This document shows positions 5,592 to 29,214 of a DNA stretch of 64,000 bases, piece after piece. Both the position numbers and the translations under genes were made by a program. This DNA comes from Planctomycetota bacterium. GTDB lineage: Bacteria > Planctomycetota > Phycisphaerae > Phycisphaerales > SM1A02. How positions within the stretch are numbered: position 1 is the stretch's first letter; every line of letters starts with the position of its first letter. The notes beneath the pieces were generated by a model. That model did no database searches and was not told the origin of the DNA. It worked only from the letters and a program-made list of their open reading frames with translations. Location of the stretch: NCBI GenBank assembly GCA_022574595.1, contig JACZRS010000005.1:62001-126000 (forward strand). The letters run 5' to 3'.

Positions 5592-8500
5592 CTAGCTCAC
5601 CACACTTTGACTTTCTTCGGATGACAAGGAGTCACTATCATCTGATTTAAATACCAAAGGTGCAGCTATTGCAACAGAACTGTAAGTACCAACAAACAGT
5701 CCTACAAGTAGACAGAATGTAAACGGTCGAATTCCGCTTCCTCCGGCTCCGTACATAATCCCCACCGCAAGCAGGGTGGTAACTGATGTAAGCACAGTTC
5801 TACTAATGGTTTGATTGATAGATTTGTTCACGATAGCTGCTGTTGGTATCGGCAACTTGCCTCGGTTTTCACGAATACGGTCCAGGATCACGATGGTGTC
5901 ATTGAGCGAGTACCCAATGATAGTAAGCAATGCTGCTACGACCCCGAGGTCTATTCGGAATTCTTCAATAAGTAGCATTGAACCTAAAGCCGTGCCGCCA
6001 ATCCAAGCCGTGGCTGCCAGCAGCCCTAAAGCTAGGGATACATCGTGGACTAATGCTACTAAAGCCGCCAGCGAATATCGTAGCGAGCCAAACCGAAACC
6101 AAATGTAAACAAGGATGCCTAATAGGCTTAGCCCCACCGCAACAATTGCTTTGTCCTTTAGAGACTCAGCTATTGCTGGTGAAAAGGTTGTGGTTTGCTC
6201 AAGGCTGGTCTGCCTCTGCAATGCCTGAGAGATTATTTCCCACTCAGTTTTGGCTAATTCACGATTCCAAATATCGAAATCTACTCTGTCATATCTTAGT
6301 GAAGCGCTATACACCAGGACAGCAACAGATGAATAACCCTCGCTGGGATCATCTGGATTTACCAAATCAAGGCCGAAGGTCTTTGACTTACGACCCAGGA
6401 GCCGAGCAAAATCCTCTTGCTGACGCATCCTATCAATGCGCTTGTCAATTTCTTCAGGGGAAACTGCTGGTTCGATATTATCTATTACTACTGCAACGCC
6501 GCCAATAAAATCAGTAACACGAGCTGAAAAGCGTGGCATTCCAATGTTGTCACCCAATGCTGAATGCTCGACTGGGTGTGTATAAGGCCTGTGGTCCGTA
6601 GATCCAGCTCCGTCAAAGTCTAGTGGAGGTGTTACATCCAGTTCGCTGCCAAATTCAGTAACGACTGCTGCGATAATTACATCACTGATAGTTTTTTCTT
6701 CGGGCAAGCCTTTAGCGTTAGGCACCTTAACTTGAAAACCCGAGGCGTACACCACGCCATCACGATTTTCCGTTTCGCCTACGGTAAGGACGCTAGCGAT
6801 GGCAAACTCACGAATGATCATGTCAACTGTTTGCTCGTTTAGGTCTGAACCACTTGCTGCTAAAGCATTGCGGAAACGTGAATTCGCCTGCGGATCAAAT
6901 TCAGCTGAGTTCTTGTTATATTTCTCCGCCAGGTGATGTATGCGCTGCTCTACTCCTTCAATACCTGTATGGGGGAGCATTAATCGTGTTACATCGCTTG
7001 CGCCTTCTATCTTATCAGGCTGTCCATCACCATCAGCATCAATTGGTACAGTAAGCATTGTTGCCGCAACACCACCACGGAACTCGGTGTCAAACATCTC
7101 AATACCGCGAATCGATACTAGTGATATTGATCCAATTACCGCAAGTATGCTGAATGTCCAGAACACTTTGCGCATTCCCATCCAACCGATGTTCGGTGCT
7201 AACATTCGGTGAATCGCGGGAAAAACTGTGGGCAACATGTTCAGCCGCTTGAATCCAAATATGTCGGTATAGAGTTCGTAAATAACTCTGGTTACAAATA
7301 GTGCGGTAATAAGAGTTGCAACAATTCCGATTCCCAAGGTCAGAGCAAACCCCTTTACCTCAGTGGTTGCGAAATAGTAAAGCACAACGCAGATAATCAG
7401 GTTGGTGACGTTGGCGTCGAGAATAGTGCTAAGAGCTTTTTGATAACCAAGTCGAATGGCAATACGAAGATCTACTTCGCCGGCAAATATCTCTTCTCGT
7501 ATTCGCTCATAGATAAGCACGTTAGCATCAACAGCCATACCAATGGTTAGAACAATTCCCGCGAGGCCCGGCAAAGTAAACGTGCCATCAATCAGCGACA
7601 TAGTTCCAAATATGATTAGGCCGTTGGTCATAAGAGCTATGCCTGCAACTACTCCCGCAAAGAAATAATAAAACAGCATGAACAACATGACGGCGATGAT
7701 GGCAATAATAAATGCTGATTTTCCGCGCTTAAGATTGTCTTCACCGATGGATGGCCCCATGGTATTTATAGCAATTGGGTCAGATCCCAAGGTGACTTCA
7801 AGAGAACCTGCTGCAAGCACGCGCGTCAGGTAATTCAGTTCTTGTTCCGAGAAGTTGCCAGAGATACTAACGGTGGTTCCAAGCGCTTCACGAATAATAG
7901 GAGCTGAATAAACTTGACCATCCAGCAAAATTGCCATGGGTTTGCCGACGTTGTTTGTTGTCAACTTTCGCATCAAGTTTCCGCCGACCGCATCTAACCT
8001 AAACGATACTGCTGGTCGACCGAAGCTATCTATGGCTGCGCCTGTATCAACAACGCTCCACTTTTGGGATTCGCTATGAACGATGCTTTGAGCATCTGTG
8101 TAGTAAACCAGAAGGAAGTATTCGCCACCATACTCTGCGCCTTGTAGGTTTTGATTTGAGAAATAGCCAATGGGATCAGCTTGCAATGCCGCCAATTCTC
8201 CAGGCTTTTTGTACCACTGCTTTAAATCGTTAATTGGATACCACTTGGCGACAAGAGAATCAGTATTCTCCGGCCCTCGTTCTGCCAATAGATCGCGCAT
8301 TATGTCTGGATTCACATCAGATGGCCTAGGCCGCGCTTGCACAGCGATATGAAACTCCAGCACACCCGCTCCGCGCAACAGTCGCATTAGATCTTCAGCG
8401 TCATCGAAACCTTTGCGCTTACTCGCGAACTCATCGTAAGCTGTAACGACATTGTTCAGCAGTGGTACAAGATGTGGGAATTCGCCTCGGATATTCAGCA

Positions 8501-21260: not shown

Positions 21261-21689
21261 ATGTCCAACCGCTACACAATCGGCCAGTTGGCCCGCGAAG
21301 CAAGTGTTCCCACCTCTACGGTTCGTTACTACGAGCGGCGTGGTCTGCTTCGCCCCGACAGCCGGAGTAAGGGCAACTACCGCGTTTACAGCGAGGCCGC
21401 ACTTGAAAAGCTTTTATTCGTGCGTTCGGCACAGGCTGCTGGTTTCACGCTCGGGGATATCGATGCACTATTGGAGTTCCGAGAAAGTGACGCTGCTCCG
21501 TGCAAGGAAGTTCAGGACCTGATTGCTGTGCGCCTCAACTTAGTGGTTGAGCAGATCAAACACCTCAAGGATGTTGATCGCATGCTCCGCGATTGGATGA
21601 AGATCTGTCATGAAGCAGAACAATCAGGCTGCTGTGGTGTAATCGAGGGTCTGCAGGCGCCCAGAGAAAAAAAATGTAAAGAAGTTTGA
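21261..21689 (+). CDS. MerR-family metal-responsive transcription regulator
   Basis: 142 residues. Helix-turn-helix at the N-terminus (YTIGQLAREASVPTSTVRYY, then ERRGLLRP), long dimer helix, then a metal site. Cys residues fall in APCKEV (about 85), KICHEAE (about 117) and SGCCGVIEGL (about 127), the same spacing as the three Hg-binding Cys of MerR, and similar to PbrR. The protein probably senses Hg, Pb or another soft metal. GGAG seven bases before ATG. Just downstream lies a 20-bp-spaced promoter with an inverted repeat that this type of regulator twists on metal binding. First gene of the resistance cluster. Confidence 0.9.
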   Translation: MSNRYTIGQLAREASVPTSTVRYYERRGLLRPDSRSKGNYRVYSEAALEKLLFVRSAQAAGFTLGDIDALLEFRESDAAPCKEVQDLIAVRLNLVVEQIKHLKDVDRMLRDWMKICHEAEQSGCCGVIEGLQAPREKKCKEV

Positions 21690-21697
21690 GAATACTC

Positions 21698-21729
21698 TTG
21701 ACCTTGCACTTAGGTTCAAGGGCGATAAT
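21698..21729 (+). promoter_or_regulatory. MerR-type promoter and operator
   Basis: TTGACC at 21698-21703 and GATAAT at 21724-21729 are 20 bp apart, longer than the usual 17. Between them the inverted repeat CCTTG (21702-21706) / CAAGG (21717-21721) is centred in the spacer. This overlong spacer with dyad is the hallmark of MerR-family control. It would drive the gene at 21780 and those after it. Confidence 0.8.
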
Positions 21730-21779: not shown

Positions 21780-22148
21780 ATGCAGAAATTCATGACTCCC
21801 ATTGCTCTAATCGCCGCAGTTGCCATCGCCGCAACCGCCTACTCAGTTTCATCCTCGTCTTCCACTGATCGCGCCGACTGTCCGGGCAAGATTCTCTGCC
21901 CGATCACCGGTGATCCAGTATGCAAAGATCGATGCCCGCTCGGGTCGGATGACGAATTTGCGAACGCCGATACACCATTTGCTAGCTGCGGCGTACTGGC
22001 GGAAACTGACACTAACCGCGCGGATTGCCCTGGCAAGATCGTCTGTCCTTTGACCGGTGAACTCGTGTGCAATAACCGCTGCCCGCTTAGCAAGGAGAAA
22101 ATCGAAGAGCGAACAGTGCTGCCAAGCTGCTGCCAGACATCGAGCTGA
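21780..22148 (+). CDS. Small exported protein with duplicated Cys motif, possible metal binder
   Basis: 122 residues. Residues 1-23 resemble a signal peptide (FMTPIALIAAVAIAATAYSV). Two repeats follow: ADCPGKILCPITGDPVCKDR and ADCPGKIVCPLTGELVCNNR, each with Cys in the spacing C-x4-C-x6-C-x3-C, then CPL. The last residues, LPSCCQTSS, add a Cys pair. I do not know this family. The CPxTG core recalls YHS-type metal domains, but the rest of that fold is missing. As the first gene behind the MerR-type promoter it may bind the inducing metal in the periplasm. Translation may start at 21780 or at the Met of FMTPI. Confidence 0.75.
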   Translation: MQKFMTPIALIAAVAIAATAYSVSSSSSTDRADCPGKILCPITGDPVCKDRCPLGSDDEFANADTPFASCGVLAETDTNRADCPGKIVCPLTGELVCNNRCPLSKEKIEERTVLPSCCQTSS

Positions 22149-22173: not shown

Positions 22174-22536
22174 ATGAAGCAACATTCCTTTATTGTGCCG
22201 ACGGCTTTAGCGACTCTTCTAGTCGCTGGTTGTCAGAGTTCACCACAAGCTACAGATAGCGCGCAGATCTACAGTTCGCCGACTGATGATGCCACAGCGT
22301 TTCCGGCGCACCGCACCGCGACCCTCTGGGTCAAAGGGCTTGCGTGTCCGTATTGTGTTCACAACATCGATCGTCAGCTTGCAGAGATGACAGGTGTCGA
22401 GCGTGTCCATGTCGATCTTCCAACAGGCGAGGTTCGCGTGGCGCTCGTTGCAAAACACCCTGCGACTCGAGAACAACTTGTCAATGCGATCGATGATAGT
22501 GGCTTCACACTTGATCGTATCGAGATGCCACAATGA
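22174..22536 (+). CDS. Lipoprotein with heavy-metal-associated (HMA) domain
   Basis: 120 residues from the ATG at 22174. A lipobox (LLVAGC, Cys at about 20) predicts a membrane-bound periplasmic lipoprotein. Residues 48-118 form an HMA fold: LWVKGLACPYCVHNIDRQLA with the CxxC metal pair, then GVERVHVDLPTGEVRVAL. MerP and CopZ-type domains carry Hg or Cu in this way. Here the carrier is anchored by lipid, not free. Its stop overlaps the next start by 4 bases (ATGA). The longer upstream frame from 22057 is in the same frame but lacks the lipobox position at a suitable distance. Confidence 0.85.
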   Translation: MKQHSFIVPTALATLLVAGCQSSPQATDSAQIYSSPTDDATAFPAHRTATLWVKGLACPYCVHNIDRQLAEMTGVERVHVDLPTGEVRVALVAKHPATREQLVNAIDDSGFTLDRIEMPQ

Positions 22537-23360
22537 CGCGGCTCGGACGAATGATTCTGCTTTCCGTGTTTGTGCTGGCTGGAGTTGGTGTGAGCGCCCA
22601 TGCTCAAGCACCCATCAATTCCAATGTCGCCCTCCAACCGTCCAAGGGTGGTTTGATTTACCGTCAGCAGTTCCGGTATACCGAGGCGGGACAGAGCAGC
22701 TCCAAGGGTGAACTGGATATTGAACAGGCGACAGCAATCACGACACTTGTCTACGGCGTCTCGGATGAGCTGACGCTCATTTTCGATACTCCATTCGTCC
22801 TTTCTCGCAGGATTGAGAACAAGACGACAGGTAGTGACGACACAGATTCTGGATTCGCCGATATGCGTATTCTGTCCAAAGTCCGTCTGTACCGAGACGA
22901 CTTTGGCACAACCGACACTACGCGCTTCGACTTGATTGGCGGATTCGAGCTTCCAACCGGTAGAGATGAGTTCAGTTCAGACTCCATCGATCCAATCCTT
23001 GGCGGCGTCTTCACACACATCGAAGGCCGTCATGCGTTTCACGCGGATGCTATCTGGAACTTCAACACCGGCGGAGGAGACCCCGGTGAGGATCTGCTCA
23101 AGTATGACCTGGCATACAGCTATCGTCTCTCACCCGAGACCTTCGCTTCAACAAATCCCGCAGCGCTCTTCGGCTCCTTGGAACTAAACGGGTTATACGA
23201 AACCAACAGTGATAACGAACTCTTCATATCGCCCGGCCTTCAGTATGTTACGACACGCTGGATCATCGAAGCCACGGTTCAGCTTCCTATCTTGCAGGAT
23301 CTGAATCATCGGGCGGAGCGCGACTTCATAGTCGGAATCGGTTTCCGCGTTCAGTTCTGA
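22533..23360 (+). CDS. Outer-membrane beta-barrel protein, possible transporter
   Basis: 275 residues. Signal peptide (ends VGVSAHAQA). The rest alternates polar and hydrophobic residues: LTLIFDTPFVLSRR, DFGTTDTTRFDLIGGFELPT, GRDEFSSDSIDPILGG, and ends in aromatic VGIGFRVQF, as outer-membrane barrels do. Resembles the group annotated as 'transporter / MetA-pathway of phenol degradation' that is often found in metal and solvent operons. Translation is coupled to the HMA lipoprotein by ATGA overlap. Function within the metal cluster is inferred from position only. Confidence 0.75.
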   Translation: MTRLGRMILLSVFVLAGVGVSAHAQAPINSNVALQPSKGGLIYRQQFRYTEAGQSSSKGELDIEQATAITTLVYGVSDELTLIFDTPFVLSRRIENKTTGSDDTDSGFADMRILSKVRLYRDDFGTTDTTRFDLIGGFELPTGRDEFSSDSIDPILGGVFTHIEGRHAFHADAIWNFNTGGGDPGEDLLKYDLAYSYRLSPETFASTNPAALFGSLELNGLYETNSDNELFISPGLQYVTTRWIIEATVQLPILQDLNHRAERDFIVGIGFRVQF

Positions 23361-23737
23361 GGTGAACGGAATACATTGCATCAGAATTCTTTACTTCGTA
23401 GGCGAACCGAATCACCCTCCGGTCGTTGAGGTGGCGTGGATACTCGTCGCAGAGCGTGGCCAAGCGGCAGCCACAGGAATTAAGAAGGTGAACCTGTTGC
23501 GGTCAGAAACATGACATGATAGTCGGATTAGTCATTTCCACTGGGCTCTGAGGCGGGCGGATCCGTACTTTGAGGTTGCATGACAATCCCTTGCCACGAG
23601 CTATCCTATAGGTCATGCAGTCTTATCACAGGCTCGGGAAGGCCTTTAATGCCGATTTTTGCTAAAGTAGTTTCGGTACAGGGCCGAGGGGAATATACTA
23701 CGTGAAGTTCTGGTTGAACAGACGGGTATGAAGCATA
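23361..23737 (+). promoter_or_regulatory. Intergenic region with an 8-bp inverted repeat
   Basis: No gene is supported in these 377 bases. TGCATGAC at 23577-23584 and GTCATGCA at 23612-23619 form a perfect inverted repeat with 27 bases between. It may be a hairpin or operator for a second promoter that drives the His/Cys-rich gene and the RND pump. A MerR-type promoter like that at 21698 is not evident. Confidence 0.4.
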
Positions 23738-24202
23738 ATGATGAGACAGCACGAAACAATCCAATGGGTCTTGGCAGGATACTTGGCACTCATGATGCCG
23801 TTGTGCTGCTGTTACGCTTCCGTTGCGACCGAGTGCAGCACACCAGTAAATGATTCGACCGTACTCTCGCAGGCGCATCATGAGCACGATCATGGCGAGC
23901 ACACTTCCAAACATAATGGCGGACACGATAAACAAGCTCCTGCCGATAATCACCAAGAATCAAACCCATCCTGTCCCGGGCACGATGACGGTTCCTGTGA
24001 CTGCGAGTGTGACAATTCGGGTCTCGGGTCTTTCACCATACAGAAGACTGTATCAATCGATGTATCACTCGGATTTTCGCTGGTTGTACCTCCTTGGCTG
24101 ACAATAGCACTCAGTGAGCAAGTACGTCCAAAAGAGCCTGCGACGAATCCTCCACTCCCGCTAACATCTCTTGTGCGCATGCACTGCGCGCTGATCGTCT
24201 AG
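23738..24202 (+). CDS. His/Cys-rich exported protein, probable metal binder
   Basis: 154 residues. After an N-terminal helix (WVLAGYLALMMPLCCCYASV) there is a His-rich run (HHEHDHGEHTSKHNGGHDKQ) and a Cys/Asp run (SCPGHDDGSCDCECDNSG). A hydrophobic stretch, about residues 108-125 (SLGFSLVVPPWLTIALSE), follows. It resembles in layout the small His-rich membrane proteins found with Cus/Czc systems. It may buffer metal ions next to the pump. The next gene, the RND adaptor, starts 136 bases downstream. I do not recognise a named family. Confidence 0.7.
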   Translation: MMRQHETIQWVLAGYLALMMPLCCCYASVATECSTPVNDSTVLSQAHHEHDHGEHTSKHNGGHDKQAPADNHQESNPSCPGHDDGSCDCECDNSGLGSFTIQKTVSIDVSLGFSLVVPPWLTIALSEQVRPKEPATNPPLPLTSLVRMHCALIV

Positions 24203-24337
24203 ACAACTGCATAGATTCCCGTACGGCTCCGCCGTGATCGTGGTTATGCGCGATGTCTATGCAAATAGATCCGTCCAGCGCCATGCAAAGTTATCAAATC
24301 GGTCGCTCGGAATTTCCTTGAAGAATTGGAGGTTCAA

Positions 24338-25774
24338 ATGAATCGTTCACAAGTTCTGTTATCAATCTCTCTGGCGGTTGTGGTACTCATAGTTCTCACT
24401 CTGCCAATATTAGCACACGAAGGTCACGGAAAGGGCGAAGTTGCGCCTTATGATCTTGACACACCGCGCAAAGTCTCTCCAGAAACCGCGGCGCATATCG
24501 GGCTTCAGACCGCCGAAGTCGACTTTGGCAGTGTCGAAGAGGTCCTCAGGTTGGTAGGCGTAGTTAAGCCACTTCCCAACTCAATTGCAGCAATCTCGCC
24601 AAGGATTGCTGGAACCGTCTTGAAGATAGTTGTGCAGGTCGGCGACACAGTTCAGCGGGGCGATTTGATTGCGGAAATAGACTCGCCTGAGTTGGCACAA
24701 TTCATCTTTGAGGCACGGAAATTGGACACAGAGTACTTCGAGCTTCTAGGCGAGGTCTCCGGAGCTGCGTCAAAAGTCGAAGCGCTATTGGTTCAGGTAG
24801 AAGCCTCGGCGCAACACGCATCGATTGTGAAGGCCGAATACGAACGGTTGCAGACCAATGAAGGAGCGATCGCGGTCAATGTTCTCAGTGAAAAGCAGGC
24901 ATCGGCGGTCCAGGCAATCAGTGAAGCCAAACTTCGCGAGATAGAGCTGTCGTTGGCAGAACAGCAATTGGAATCGATGAACAAACAAGCTGAATCAATG
25001 CAGGATTCGAGGGATGCTCTGGGGGAGGTCATTGCACTGATTCGCGATGGAGCAGTTGAGACACGCATTGTGGCAACTGGTGATGTGAACTTGATTATGG
25101 GGGGAAACAGCGACGAACGAACGAGGCACATAGGTCTTATGCGGTTGTACGCTCCGATCAGCGGTATTGTTACCACGCGAAATGTCAATACCGGCGAAGG
25201 AGTGGAATCCGGTCAAGCACTCGTCGAGATAGCGGACTACTCGCGTGTACAGATTGAAGGCGAACTGCCAGAATCTCTCGTCGAGCGAGCGATGTCAGGG
25301 ACAAACAACAAGGTCCGCCTTCGTCGCGTTTCCGATAGAAATGGCGACGTGATCGCCACTGGTCACGTGCGCTTCATCAGCCCCGTGATTGATCCTATCA
25401 AGCGAACCACGCATATTTTTGTCGAGGCTGACAATCCGCAGGGGCTACTTCGAGACGGGATGTATGTTGATCTGTCAATCGTGCTTCGTGAGGAAACCTC
25501 TGCGGTCGTCGTGCCGGTGTCATCTGTGGTCATTGACGGCCCAATGCACTTCGTATTTGTCAAGGACGGTGATTTCTACAAGAAGCAGGATATCAACCCC
25601 GGATACCGAGATGACCGCTTTGTCGAGGTGCTTGAGGGTGTGCTCCCCGGTGACATCGTAGTCACGCGTGGCGCCTACAGCCTCACGCAACTGCGACCCA
25701 AGGTCGAGACCCTGGCCGAAACAGCCGCTGACGAAAACGACTCCGCTGCTAGCGAAACAGATAACGCAGGCTGA
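24338..25774 (+). CDS. RND efflux periplasmic adaptor (CzcB/CusB type)
   Basis: 478 residues from the ATG at 24338, which has GGAGG five bases upstream; the frame's earlier TTG would fall on that site. An N-terminal signal helix is followed by AHEGHGKGE, a His-rich start common in CzcB-like adaptors. The barrel-sandwich halves are AAISPRIAGTVLKIVVQVGD (before a long helical hairpin, about residues 120-235) and LYAPISGIVTTRNVNTGEGV. Membrane-proximal domains follow (MYVDLSIVLREETSAVVVPV). It links the inner pump to the TolC-like channel. The pump gene follows by 26 bases. Confidence 0.9.
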   Translation: MNRSQVLLSISLAVVVLIVLTLPILAHEGHGKGEVAPYDLDTPRKVSPETAAHIGLQTAEVDFGSVEEVLRLVGVVKPLPNSIAAISPRIAGTVLKIVVQVGDTVQRGDLIAEIDSPELAQFIFEARKLDTEYFELLGEVSGAASKVEALLVQVEASAQHASIVKAEYERLQTNEGAIAVNVLSEKQASAVQAISEAKLREIELSLAEQQLESMNKQAESMQDSRDALGEVIALIRDGAVETRIVATGDVNLIMGGNSDERTRHIGLMRLYAPISGIVTTRNVNTGEGVESGQALVEIADYSRVQIEGELPESLVERAMSGTNNKVRLRRVSDRNGDVIATGHVRFISPVIDPIKRTTHIFVEADNPQGLLRDGMYVDLSIVLREETSAVVVPVSSVVIDGPMHFVFVKDGDFYKKQDINPGYRDDRFVEVLEGVLPGDIVVTRGAYSLTQLRPKVETLAETAADENDSAASETDNAG

Positions 25775-25800: not shown

Positions 25801-28800
25801 GTGCTCAAGGCAATTGTCCGAATCTCACTCACTAACCGCGTGCTAGTCATACTAGCTACGCTGGCGATTTGTGTGTACGGCGTGGTGACCGCTCTTCGGC
25901 TCCCCGTTGATGTTCTGCCTGACCTCAACCGACCGACTGTTACAATTCTGATCGAAGCGCCGGGACTCGCACCGGAAGAGGTCGAAGTCCAGGTAACTTA
26001 TCCAATTGAGACGGTGATGAACGGTGCAGCAGGCGTCGAGCGAGTCAGGAGCGTCTCGGGGATTGGGTTGTCGGTCGTTTTTGTTGAGTTCGACTGGGAT
26101 ACGGATATCCGCTTCAACCGCCAAGTCGTTCAGGAGCGCATCAATCAGGCTGCCGAGCGTTTGCCCGAGGGGGTCACGCCATTCATGGCGCCCATTAGTT
26201 CGATAATGGGGGAGATCATGCTGGTGGGGGTGACGGGCGATGGCGTATCGCCAATGGATTTGCGGACTCTCGCTGACTGGACCATCCGACCGGCTCTGCT
26301 CGCGGTGCCGGGCATCGCTCAGGTAACGGTAATGGGGGGCGAACTGAAGCAGTTTCAAGTTCGGGCTAACCCCCAGAAGCTGCGCATCTACAACCTGACG
26401 CTGAAGGAACTTGAAGCAGCTGTACAGGAAAGCAACGAGAACTCCGGCGGCGGTTTTATCACCGATGAGAATCGAGAACTCGTCGTTCGCAATCTCGGAA
26501 GGGTTCGATCGGTTGCGGACATCGAGAACGCTTTGGTAGTTGCGCGAACGAGCGAAGGTGCTACAGTACCTGTTCGCGTTAAGGATGTGGCCCGAGTTAT
26601 CGAGGCCGGCTCTCCCATCAAGCGCGGTGACGGATCGATGAACGGCAAACCTGCTGTCATCATGGCGATCTCCAAGCAGCCTCACGCCGACACACGCAAA
26701 CTGACCACATTGATTGACGAGACGCTGGACAAACTGCGCCCAGGCCTCCCCGCAGGAACCATTGTCAACGCAGATCTGTTTCGTCAAGCGCACTTCATCG
26801 AAAACGCCAACGAAAATGTCGTTGAGGCGCTGCGTGATGGCGCTATTCTCGTGGTGATCATTCTTGCCTTGTTTCTCATGAATTTCCGTACAACTATTAT
26901 CACACTCACGGCTATACCGCTGTCTCTGCTGACGACGTTCATCGTGTTCGAGATGATGGGCGAATCGATCAACACCATGACGTTGGGAGGGATCGCTGTC
27001 GCCATCGGCGAGCTTGTCGATGATGCTATCGTCGGTGTGGAAAATGTATTTCGCCGTCTGCGCGAGAATCGTAGCGCGACCAATCCCAAGCCTCCCCTGC
27101 GCGTTGTCTTTGAGGCCACATCTGAAGTGCGAGGTCCAATCGTGATCGGCACGACGATTGTTTTGCTCGTCTTCCTTCCATTATTCGCATTGCCCGGGCT
27201 TTCCGGACGGTTGTTTCAACCGCTTGCCATTGCGTACATCGTTTCAATCCTGGCGTCGATGGTTGTATCGCTCACAGTAACTCCGGTGCTAGCGCTGTAC
27301 CTGCTTCCCAATGTAAAACGCATGGCGCACACTGATGACAGCTTCGTGTTGCGATGGTGTAAACAACTTGCTCTGAAATGCTATCAAGTGTCGATACCTC
27401 GGCCGTGGACAGTAATTAGTATCTGCGCTGTATTGGTTCTTTTAAGCGGGATTCGTGTAGCGTTTATGGGAACACAGTTCTTGCCTAGTTTTAACGAAGG
27501 TACAGCAACCGTCACGCTCATTGCCCAACCCGGGATATCACTTGTCGAGTCCAATCGGCTGGGTGTACGAGCAGAGGAATTACTGCTGGGGATTCCCGAG
27601 GTTAAGAGTACCGGTCGCCGAACTGGCAGGGCTGAACAGGATGAACATGCGGAGGGGGTCCACTACAGCGAGATCGATGTTGATTTTTGGACCGAGGACG
27701 AAGCCGATGAGCCGGATGAACATGTTACATATGATGGCCGGCGTGCGCCATCTGAGCTGCGGCCGCGAGAAACCGTGCTGGCTGAGTTTCGCGATAAACT
27801 CACCGACCTTCCAGGCATATCCCTGAACATTGGTCAACCGATCAGTCACAGGATCGACCATCTCGAATCGGGGGTTCGGGCTCAGATCGTCCTCAAGATC
27901 TTTGGCCCGGAATTGCGAGAGCTGCGCCGCCTTGCTGATGAACTTCGGGCGGCCATGGACGGTTTGCCCGGCATTGTCGATCTCCAGATCGAAAAGCAAG
28001 TTTTGATTCCACAACTTCGGATCCGTGTCGATCCTAATGAAGCGGCCCGATACGGATTCCGTGTCGGCGATTTGATTGAAACCCTTGAAACTGCGATGAA
28101 TGGAACCATCGTCTCCCAGGTACTTGATGGAATCAAGCAGTACGATTTGGTCGTCATGCTCGACGATCCCTGGCGCAGCGATCTCAGCGCGCTTCGTGAT
28201 CTTCGGCTAATCTCTCCAACAGGAGCCGTGGTTCTTCTGTCCGATACCGCAACGATTACCGAGATCCCGGGTCCGAACCAGATCGCGCGCGAAAATGTCC
28301 AACGAAGGATCGTTGTCTCCTGCAACGTTCAAGGACGCGATCTCGGCAGCACCGTCAAAGATATCAAGAAATCGATCGAGATGGACGTTGAGATCCCACA
28401 GGGATATTTCATTCGTCTCGAAGGGCAATTCGAATCGCAGCAGAAGGCGACGCGGGTGATCTTCATCCTGGGTAGCCTCTCACTACTGCTGATGCTTGGC
28501 ATCCTTTATAGTTACTTCAAGAACTTGGTGATGGCGCTGCAAGTGATGCTGAACATTCCAGCTGCGTTCATCGGCAGTGTCGCGGCGTTGTGGATTACCG
28601 ATCAACCGTTCAGCGTGGCAAGCCTTGTAGGGTTCATCAGCCTCTGTGGCATCGCCAGCAGAAACGGCGTGCTCATGATCAGCCACTACATCCACCTTAT
28701 GGCCGTAGAGGGAATGCCCTTTGGCAAGGAAATGGTGATTCGCGGAAGCCAGGAGCGCGTCGCGCCGGTTCTAATGACAGCTCTCACCACCGGCCTGGGT

Positions 28801-29214
28801 TTGATACCGCTCGCTCTGGCTGCCGGACAACCGGGAAAAGAATTGCTTTACCCGGTTGCAGTAGTGGTGATTGGTGGCCTGCTCACAAGCACGGTCCTCG
28901 ATTTCTTCGTCAGACCGGCTGCGTTTTTGAAATTCTCCGAAAATGCCTCACGCCGAATGTTAGAGCGCCTGAAAAGTGGTAGTGAAAGCCTTGCGGATCA
29001 AATGGATATCACTACAAGCGATACGCCAAAGGTCCCCAGCTCGACCAGTAAGCCCAAGAAGGACGAAGAAAAACCAACTACCGACGAGGTTAAATCTGAC
29101 TCGGCCAAAGCTACTCCAACAGCCCAAAAACAGTCCGATGCAAACGGCGATAACATGCCGGATAAACAATCACCTACCGAACCCAAAACTCCTCCACGAA
29201 AGGATACCCAATGA
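25801..29214 (+). CDS. Heavy-metal RND efflux pump (CzcA/CusA family)
   Basis: 1137 residues from GTG, with GAAAGG seven bases before. A proton-driven trimeric pump in the inner membrane. Start and N-terminal helix are typical (SLTNRVLVILATLAICVYGV), as are the porter segments (LPDLNRPTVTILIEAPGLAP). TM4 carries GELVDDAIVGVEN, about residues 403-416, with the proton-relay Asp pair in the DDA form rather than the DFG-type of zinc CzcA. The metal is therefore not fixed by this motif. A charged Pro/Lys/Asp tail of about 70 residues follows the last helix and is unusual. The next gene overlaps by 4 bases. Confidence 0.92.
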   Translation: MLKAIVRISLTNRVLVILATLAICVYGVVTALRLPVDVLPDLNRPTVTILIEAPGLAPEEVEVQVTYPIETVMNGAAGVERVRSVSGIGLSVVFVEFDWDTDIRFNRQVVQERINQAAERLPEGVTPFMAPISSIMGEIMLVGVTGDGVSPMDLRTLADWTIRPALLAVPGIAQVTVMGGELKQFQVRANPQKLRIYNLTLKELEAAVQESNENSGGGFITDENRELVVRNLGRVRSVADIENALVVARTSEGATVPVRVKDVARVIEAGSPIKRGDGSMNGKPAVIMAISKQPHADTRKLTTLIDETLDKLRPGLPAGTIVNADLFRQAHFIENANENVVEALRDGAILVVIILALFLMNFRTTIITLTAIPLSLLTTFIVFEMMGESINTMTLGGIAVAIGELVDDAIVGVENVFRRLRENRSATNPKPPLRVVFEATSEVRGPIVIGTTIVLLVFLPLFALPGLSGRLFQPLAIAYIVSILASMVVSLTVTPVLALYLLPNVKRMAHTDDSFVLRWCKQLALKCYQVSIPRPWTVISICAVLVLLSGIRVAFMGTQFLPSFNEGTATVTLIAQPGISLVESNRLGVRAEELLLGIPEVKSTGRRTGRAEQDEHAEGVHYSEIDVDFWTEDEADEPDEHVTYDGRRAPSELRPRETVLAEFRDKLTDLPGISLNIGQPISHRIDHLESGVRAQIVLKIFGPELRELRRLADELRAAMDGLPGIVDLQIEKQVLIPQLRIRVDPNEAARYGFRVGDLIETLETAMNGTIVSQVLDGIKQYDLVVMLDDPWRSDLSALRDLRLISPTGAVVLLSDTATITEIPGPNQIARENVQRRIVVSCNVQGRDLGSTVKDIKKSIEMDVEIPQGYFIRLEGQFESQQKATRVIFILGSLSLLLMLGILYSYFKNLVMALQVMLNIPAAFIGSVAALWITDQPFSVASLVGFISLCGIASRNGVLMISHYIHLMAVEGMPFGKEMVIRGSQERVAPVLMTALTTGLGLIPLALAAGQPGKELLYPVAVVVIGGLLTSTVLDFFVRPAAFLKFSENASRRMLERLKSGSESLADQMDITTSDTPKVPSSTSKPKKDEEKPTTDEVKSDSAKATPTAQKQSDANGDNMPDKQSPTEPKTPPRKDTQ

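Follow-up and report, generated by a model that had tools for sequence, protein, structure and literature searches.

The window analysed here is the whole stretch of 64,000 nucleotides, in which an open reading frame on the forward strand (21780–22148) encodes a 122-residue protein with a duplicated four-cysteine motif, for which the name CysP was coined in the present analysis; all other features of the window described below lie on the same strand. The two units, repeat 1 at 21870–21941 (residues 31–54, RADCPGKILCPITGDPVCKDRCPL) and repeat 2 at 22017–22088 (residues 80–103, RADCPGKIVCPLTGELVCNNRCPL), are identical at 18 of 24 residues and share the consensus RADCPGKI-x-CPxTG-x3-C-x3-CPL. Together with C70 in the linker and a cysteine pair near the end of the protein (C117–C118, 22128–22133) they make up the 11 cysteines of CysP. 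The frame, both copies of the motif and the terminal pair had been pointed out in an earlier note on this DNA and are real, the spacing proposed there (C-x4-C-x6-C-x3-C) being one short in each of the first two gaps, so that the actual arrangement within each unit is C-x5-C-x7-C-x3-C. Comparison of unit 1 with unit 2 revealed changes at 12 of 17.5 synonymous and at 7 of 54.5 non-synonymous sites (dS 1.84, dN 0.14), which indicates that the duplication is old and has been held by selection. The N-terminus is hydrophobic, and the protein is probably exported by a Sec-type route, some of its relatives being lipoprotein-like. CysP is present as a single copy in its own genome (search at E ≤ 0.001). 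The statement of the earlier note that no named family covers this protein holds: neither Pfam nor NCBIfam, including the HMA, mer and metallothionein profiles, gives a match at E ≤ 1, and a sequence search of PDB returns nothing at E ≤ 10, the profile of the whole family yielding one match with E 2.1 to the signal stretch. Two AlphaFold2 runs produced poor models (mean pLDDT 61.7 and 63.5, pTM 0.25 and 0.29), in which each unit is drawn as a short hairpin plus a helical turn (pLDDT about 70–80); a Foldseek comparison of the first model with PDB gave a best E of 2.7, with none at E ≤ 0.001 and no Z ≥ 2 among its 23 chains.

CysP is preceded by a gene for a MerR-type regulator of 142 residues (21261–21689, Pfam MerR_1), which possesses the MerR helix-turn-helix (PF13411, 1.7e-19) and the C-terminal domain PF09278 (1.4e-12). 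Its best NCBIfam scores are those with sensors of Hg, Zn and Cd/Pb, and it stays below the equivalog cut-offs for Hg, Zn, Cd/Pb and Cu, reaching 108.1 bits against the 150.85 required by TIGR02051, the equivalog of Hg-type MerR. In the alignment its sensor cysteines C81, C116 and C125 are separated by 35 and 9 positions, and we take them to be the counterparts of C82, C117 and C126 of MerR on the grounds of this spacing, not of an alignment with a reference MerR. The 35/9 spacing is known for the Hg sensor MerR as well as for PbrR-like sensors and therefore does not name the metal. Behind merR, at 21698–21729, lies the MerR-type promoter/operator that the earlier note had placed ahead of CysP: TTGACC (21698–21703) and GATAAT (21724–21729) are separated by a 20-nt spacer harbouring the dyad CCTTG-N10-CAAGG, and CysP is indeed the first gene after it. 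The operator TTGACCTTGCACTTAGGTTCAAGG (21698–21721) is the sole match in the 4.09-Mb genome with up to 2 mismatches allowed, and shuffled windows are expected to contain its pattern, at 3 mismatches or fewer, 0.01 times. The form of this element, considered together with the regulator, suggests that the promoter would be metal-dependent. Since the same 4.09-Mb genome contains two MerR_1 matches, the adjacency of merR and CysP is not a matter of chance.

Downstream of CysP, a gene at 22174–22536 encodes an HMA-domain protein (Pfam HMA, 2e-10) with a CPYC motif, lipoprotein-like by eye, and a gene with 67% identity occupies the same place in another CysP locus, L105. It is followed by a 275-residue protein (22533–23360), outer-membrane-type by eye and lacking a Pfam or NCBIfam family at E ≤ 1, whose relatives are found beside CysP; one relative (36% identity, 1e-48) resides in locus L117 together with merR, MerT and MerA, which links the gene to mercury once. 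The order merR, CysP, HMA gene and 275-residue gene is shared by the window and L105, where a MerT fusion comes next. At the corresponding place of the window a remnant was detected (23380–23469), matching the N-terminus of a DF/thioredoxin-like–MerT–HMA fusion from locus L035 (tblastn 9e-7, 67% over 30 residues): about 30 residues are left, the cysteine of GCPNHPP is replaced, the segment has no Pfam match of its own, and no further part was found before the next gene, a weakly recognizable CzcI-like His-rich protein (23738–24202; NF045614, 3.3e-5, 24.5 bits against a cut-off of 100). The cluster continues with a CzcB-type adaptor (24326–25774; RND_mfp TIGR01730 over cut-off, HlyD_D23 6e-29) and a CzcA-type heavy-metal RND pump (25801–29214; TIGR00914, 804 bits, over cut-off).

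Database scans enlarged the family to 52 genes, distinct as judged by the DNA around the motif and with the window's included, 29 of which contain two units; this count passes over any gene with a motif beginning less than 150 bases into its locus, and the stricter motif pattern behind it missed the protein of G198 (CPLSG; L008, L057, L092) and the decaying copy of G306 (L028, L065). Family members have one or two units, mostly with the terminal CC, and nearly all are planctomycete. As scored by script, a strongly hydrophobic stretch precedes the motif in 47 of the 52 genes and a lipobox-like site is present in 5. Scanning of genome contigs with CysP gave 22 loci, 20 titled as planctomycete, one as Acidobacteria and one as Vicinamibacteraceae. 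The CysP protein as a query hit 20 of the 392 genomes searched in the phylum (E ≤ 0.01); eight of them (loci L013–L020) were devoid of the motif and were dropped, leaving 12 of 392. Alignment A1 as a query matched 26 of 397 genomes of the class at E ≤ 0.001, hereafter the carriers, which span seven families (f1, f2, f3, f5, f102, f111 and f113). In the phylum of the acidobacterial locus, one of 199 genomes matched, namely that locus's own, and neither viral contigs nor plasmids yielded relatives at the sensitivities used. The CysP of the locus titled Vicinamibacteraceae (L035) is the same as that encoded at L073 in G710; since G710 is assigned to the order of the window, the Vicinamibacteraceae title may be wrong.

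The 32 cleaned proteins less L051, a near-identical sequence, make up the 31 rows of alignment A1, in which L028, L045, L046 and the protein of G198 were not included. Invariant in it, in window numbering, are D82, C83, P84, G85, C89, T92, G93, C97, C101, P102, C117 and C118, so that every row retains the motif cysteines of unit 2 as well as the CC tail. The median dN/dS among family units is 0.16, calculated over 2171 usable pairs of 81 units after removal of pairs that were saturated, had dS of 0.2 or less or came from the same locus. The copy at L028 is decaying, its unit 2 having lost the first cysteine and its CC tail being gone. Locus L100 carries two merR–CysP cassettes in tandem, with CysP motifs at 6838 and 8837 and a MerT motif between them.

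A MerR-family frame was found within 1 kb of 49 of the 52 CysP genes; of the remaining three, L045 and L111 sit right at the start of a contig and L061 lies 778 bases away from a contig start. merR and CysP form a unit that is conserved and, to date, nearly restricted to a single phylum, and the regulatory linkage of CysP to merR is strong. Among 48 distinct regulators scored as adjacent by script, a set that does not contain those of G198, L056 and L065, three sensor cysteines are present in 43 and the exact 35/9 spacing in 23. The last gap is shorter in 20 of them, a feature of CadR-like sensors, and the first sensor cysteine is absent in five. Inspection of printed lists by eye revealed TTGAC, dyad and −10 element directly upstream of CysP in 25 of the 52 genes, the frequency of the dyad in shuffled sequence being ≤ 0.05 for 19 of these 25. 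Of 24 further genes inspected, the three at contig starts being excluded, eight have such an element upstream of merR with CysP directly behind merR; an operator of this form was not seen in the other 16, one of which (L063) has a perfect palindrome of other sequence. In L035, L036 and L043 a terminase-like gene of 770–785 residues (by eye) lies near the cassette, perhaps as a sign of mobility.

Co-occurrence with mer genes was compared across the genomes of the class. MerT (PF02411, E ≤ 1e-5) was detected in 17 of 26 carriers versus 19 of 371 non-carriers (odds ratio 35, Fisher 6e-14, relatedness uncorrected), and in 14 of the 17 MerT-bearing carriers it is located on the contig of CysP within about 5.2 kb; MerT was not found in the other nine carriers. 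A recurrent neighbour of CysP is MerT fused to HMA and, N-terminally, to a zf_CopZ or DF-type domain, as observed in the four fusions scanned. The window's own genome has one MerT match, on another contig (G000:C1:96740, contig 1); it belongs to a 402-residue frame of a CopZ-type–MerT fusion (L113, 6810–8343), which is separate from the MerR cassette and follows a gene that is CsoR-like by eye. MerA exceeding the TIGR02053 cut-off occurs in none of the 26 carriers, in 14 of 19 MerT genomes without CysP and in none of 20 others, these 20, devoid of both CysP and MerT, being members of the window's family and not a random draw, with relatedness again uncorrected and several genomes in the MerT and MerA comparison incomplete. 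The Fisher values are too small, because family f111 supplies 13 of the 26 carriers and family f103 supplies 11 of the 14 MerA genomes; in families f2 and f3, CysP is found in some genomes and MerA in others. In the window's own genome the best MerA match scores 312.7 bits against the cut-off of 454.45. In G507, G393, G727 and G198, MerA-like flavoprotein reductases of 381–407 bits are encoded at distances of about 3.3 to 10.5 kb from the CysP gene; a MerA role was rejected for them, as they score below the cut-off and the three that were read (L122–L124) are without the terminal SCC of MerA frames. In sum, the merR–CysP unit frequently accompanies MerT, and no such link to MerA is seen among the 26 carriers tested.

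The simplest reading of CysP would be metal binding outside the inner membrane, and on the sequence evidence we consider it rather probable that CysP is an extracytoplasmic protein binding a soft metal, most likely Hg(II), and, as the first product, the dedicated effector of a MerA-less mer-like cassette. The three cysteines of the regulator would bind a divalent thiophilic metal, Hg(II) being the likeliest, and the metal-bound regulator would distort the promoter with the 20-nt spacer, so that CysP would be switched on first. Once exported, the protein would capture metal outside the inner membrane by means of its C-x5-C-x7-C-x3-C units and the CC tail, acting as a metal sink or, alternatively, as a buffer from which metal passes to the MerT/HMA fusion or the RND pump of the cassette. 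It might replace the reduction step, an assumption made because the tested carriers are without MerA. More tentatively, and with somewhat less than even confidence, one may envisage a MerA-free mercury defence in Planctomycetota, in which a MerR-switched exported Cys4-repeat protein would capture Hg(II) outside the inner membrane and be coupled to MerT/HMA fusions bearing an Fe-S-type CopZ or DF domain, so that mercury would be trapped and passed on, not vaporised.

As to the metal, mercury would come first and Cd, Zn or Pb next; the latter are kept as candidates because of the shorter cysteine spacing in 20 of the 48 regulators, the absence of the first sensor cysteine in five of them and the CzcA-type RND genes, which are present in 10 of the 50 CysP neighbourhoods, that of the window among them. 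The RND genes and the shorter spacing lend some weight to an alternative in which CysP serves in the periplasm as a chaperone or buffer of Zn, Cd, Pb or Co and feeds a CzcBA pump, mercury being uninvolved: CzcB and CzcA follow downstream in the window itself, and the shorter spacing is that of CadR-like sensors. MerT is, however, the commoner neighbour, being found by a short motif within 5.5 kb of 25 of the 52 CysP genes (many contigs are cut, and one case, L046, is on the opposite strand) and by profile on the same contig in 14 of the 26 carriers, and several loci (e.g., L104, L106 and L107) hold little besides merR and CysP, which makes this alternative unlikely, if still the best placed of the rivals. 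Such bare loci, like the nine carriers in which MerT was not found, also count against the preferred mer-like reading.

We regard as improbable the proposal that CysP is a disulfide-stabilised exported protein with structural cysteines, which protects the cell otherwise or acts in thiol-redox balance. Export would bring it to an oxidising compartment, many members have 6 or 10 cysteines, even numbers that fit disulfides, and thioredoxin-like genes (by eye) are present in 5 of 50 neighbourhoods. A profile match to a disulfide-rich family, raised in the earlier note as a counter-argument to metal binding, is found in weak form: PF25415 (EGF of BRNP) matches 10 of 31 family members at E ≤ 1, with a best value of 1.8e-4, while the window protein itself is unmatched. 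Among 17 distinct members scanned singly, however, the nine that matched did so over 13–15 residues and scored no more than 21.7 bits, the cut-off being 27, and we took the EGF-like kinship for a chance match of a Cys-rich stretch; the regulator, moreover, is of the metal-sensing type. A Trm112-like match in 4 of 31 members (best E 0.13) was likewise judged to be due to chance. The idea that CysP, in the manner of MerP, donates metal solely for MerT to take up, without acting as a sink, agrees with the MerT fusions adjacent to CysP and is equally improbable, given that the four scanned fusions have an HMA domain of their own, that carriers are without an over-cut-off MerA to receive the metal and that MerT was missing from the nine carriers mentioned above.

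The preferred interpretation, an extracytoplasmic metal-binding CysP, sets the protein beside several described systems. The cassette resembles the canonical mer operon (MerR, MerT, MerP and MerA) in its MerR-type regulator and operator, in the presence of MerT in many relatives and in its HMA proteins; it differs from it by the absence of an over-cut-off MerA in the 26 carriers, by the fusion of the scanned MerT proteins to a zf_CopZ or DF domain and HMA and by a first product that matches no mer profile. With MerP and HMA proteins CysP would share the properties of an exported soft-metal binder encoded in a MerR operon, but it has neither an HMA profile match (E ≤ 1) nor the GMTCxxC motif. 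Bacterial metallothioneins of the SmtA type are small, Cys-rich, presumably metal-induced metal sinks, to which CysP is similar in size, in cysteine content and in its presumed role as a metal-induced sink; unlike them it gives no metallothionein profile match, is probably exported and consists of a repeat in which D, P, G and T are conserved.

Among described proteins the nearest parallel is Zrd of Pseudomonas aeruginosa, reported as a small protein with two predicted Cys4 zinc ribbons, induced by Cd and Zn via CadR and of unproven function (PMC12301328). Two Cys4 units and a MerR-family regulator are common to both proteins. The zinc ribbons of Zrd follow, however, the pattern CXXC-N10-CXXC, which CysP fails, having C-x5-C-x7-C-x3-C, and the authors of the report on Zrd propose an intracellular sink, its gene being located away from cadR (PMC12301328), whereas CysP is probably exported, is encoded beside its regulator and possesses the CC tail. 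No description of the CysP family was found in the literature searched, with most subscription journals outside that search, so an earlier description is possible. Table 1 of a 2020 survey of 84,032 bacterial genomes gives one planctomycete genome with a MerA homologue (PMC8261052). CysP establishes a family without a name, in a phylum whose dealings with mercury have received little study. The occurrence of MerT without MerA is a puzzle in itself, since a cell that imports Hg(II) but does not reduce it should be harmed, and a conserved, probably exported thiol protein as the first product of the cassette offers a testable answer to it. Also in favour of the preferred reading, two of the eight MerA loci looked at (L114–L121) encode another small Cys-rich protein, between MerR and MerA or before MerA (L114, 4261–4575; L120, 139–543); these proteins end in GCCQ or PPCCR and look unrelated.
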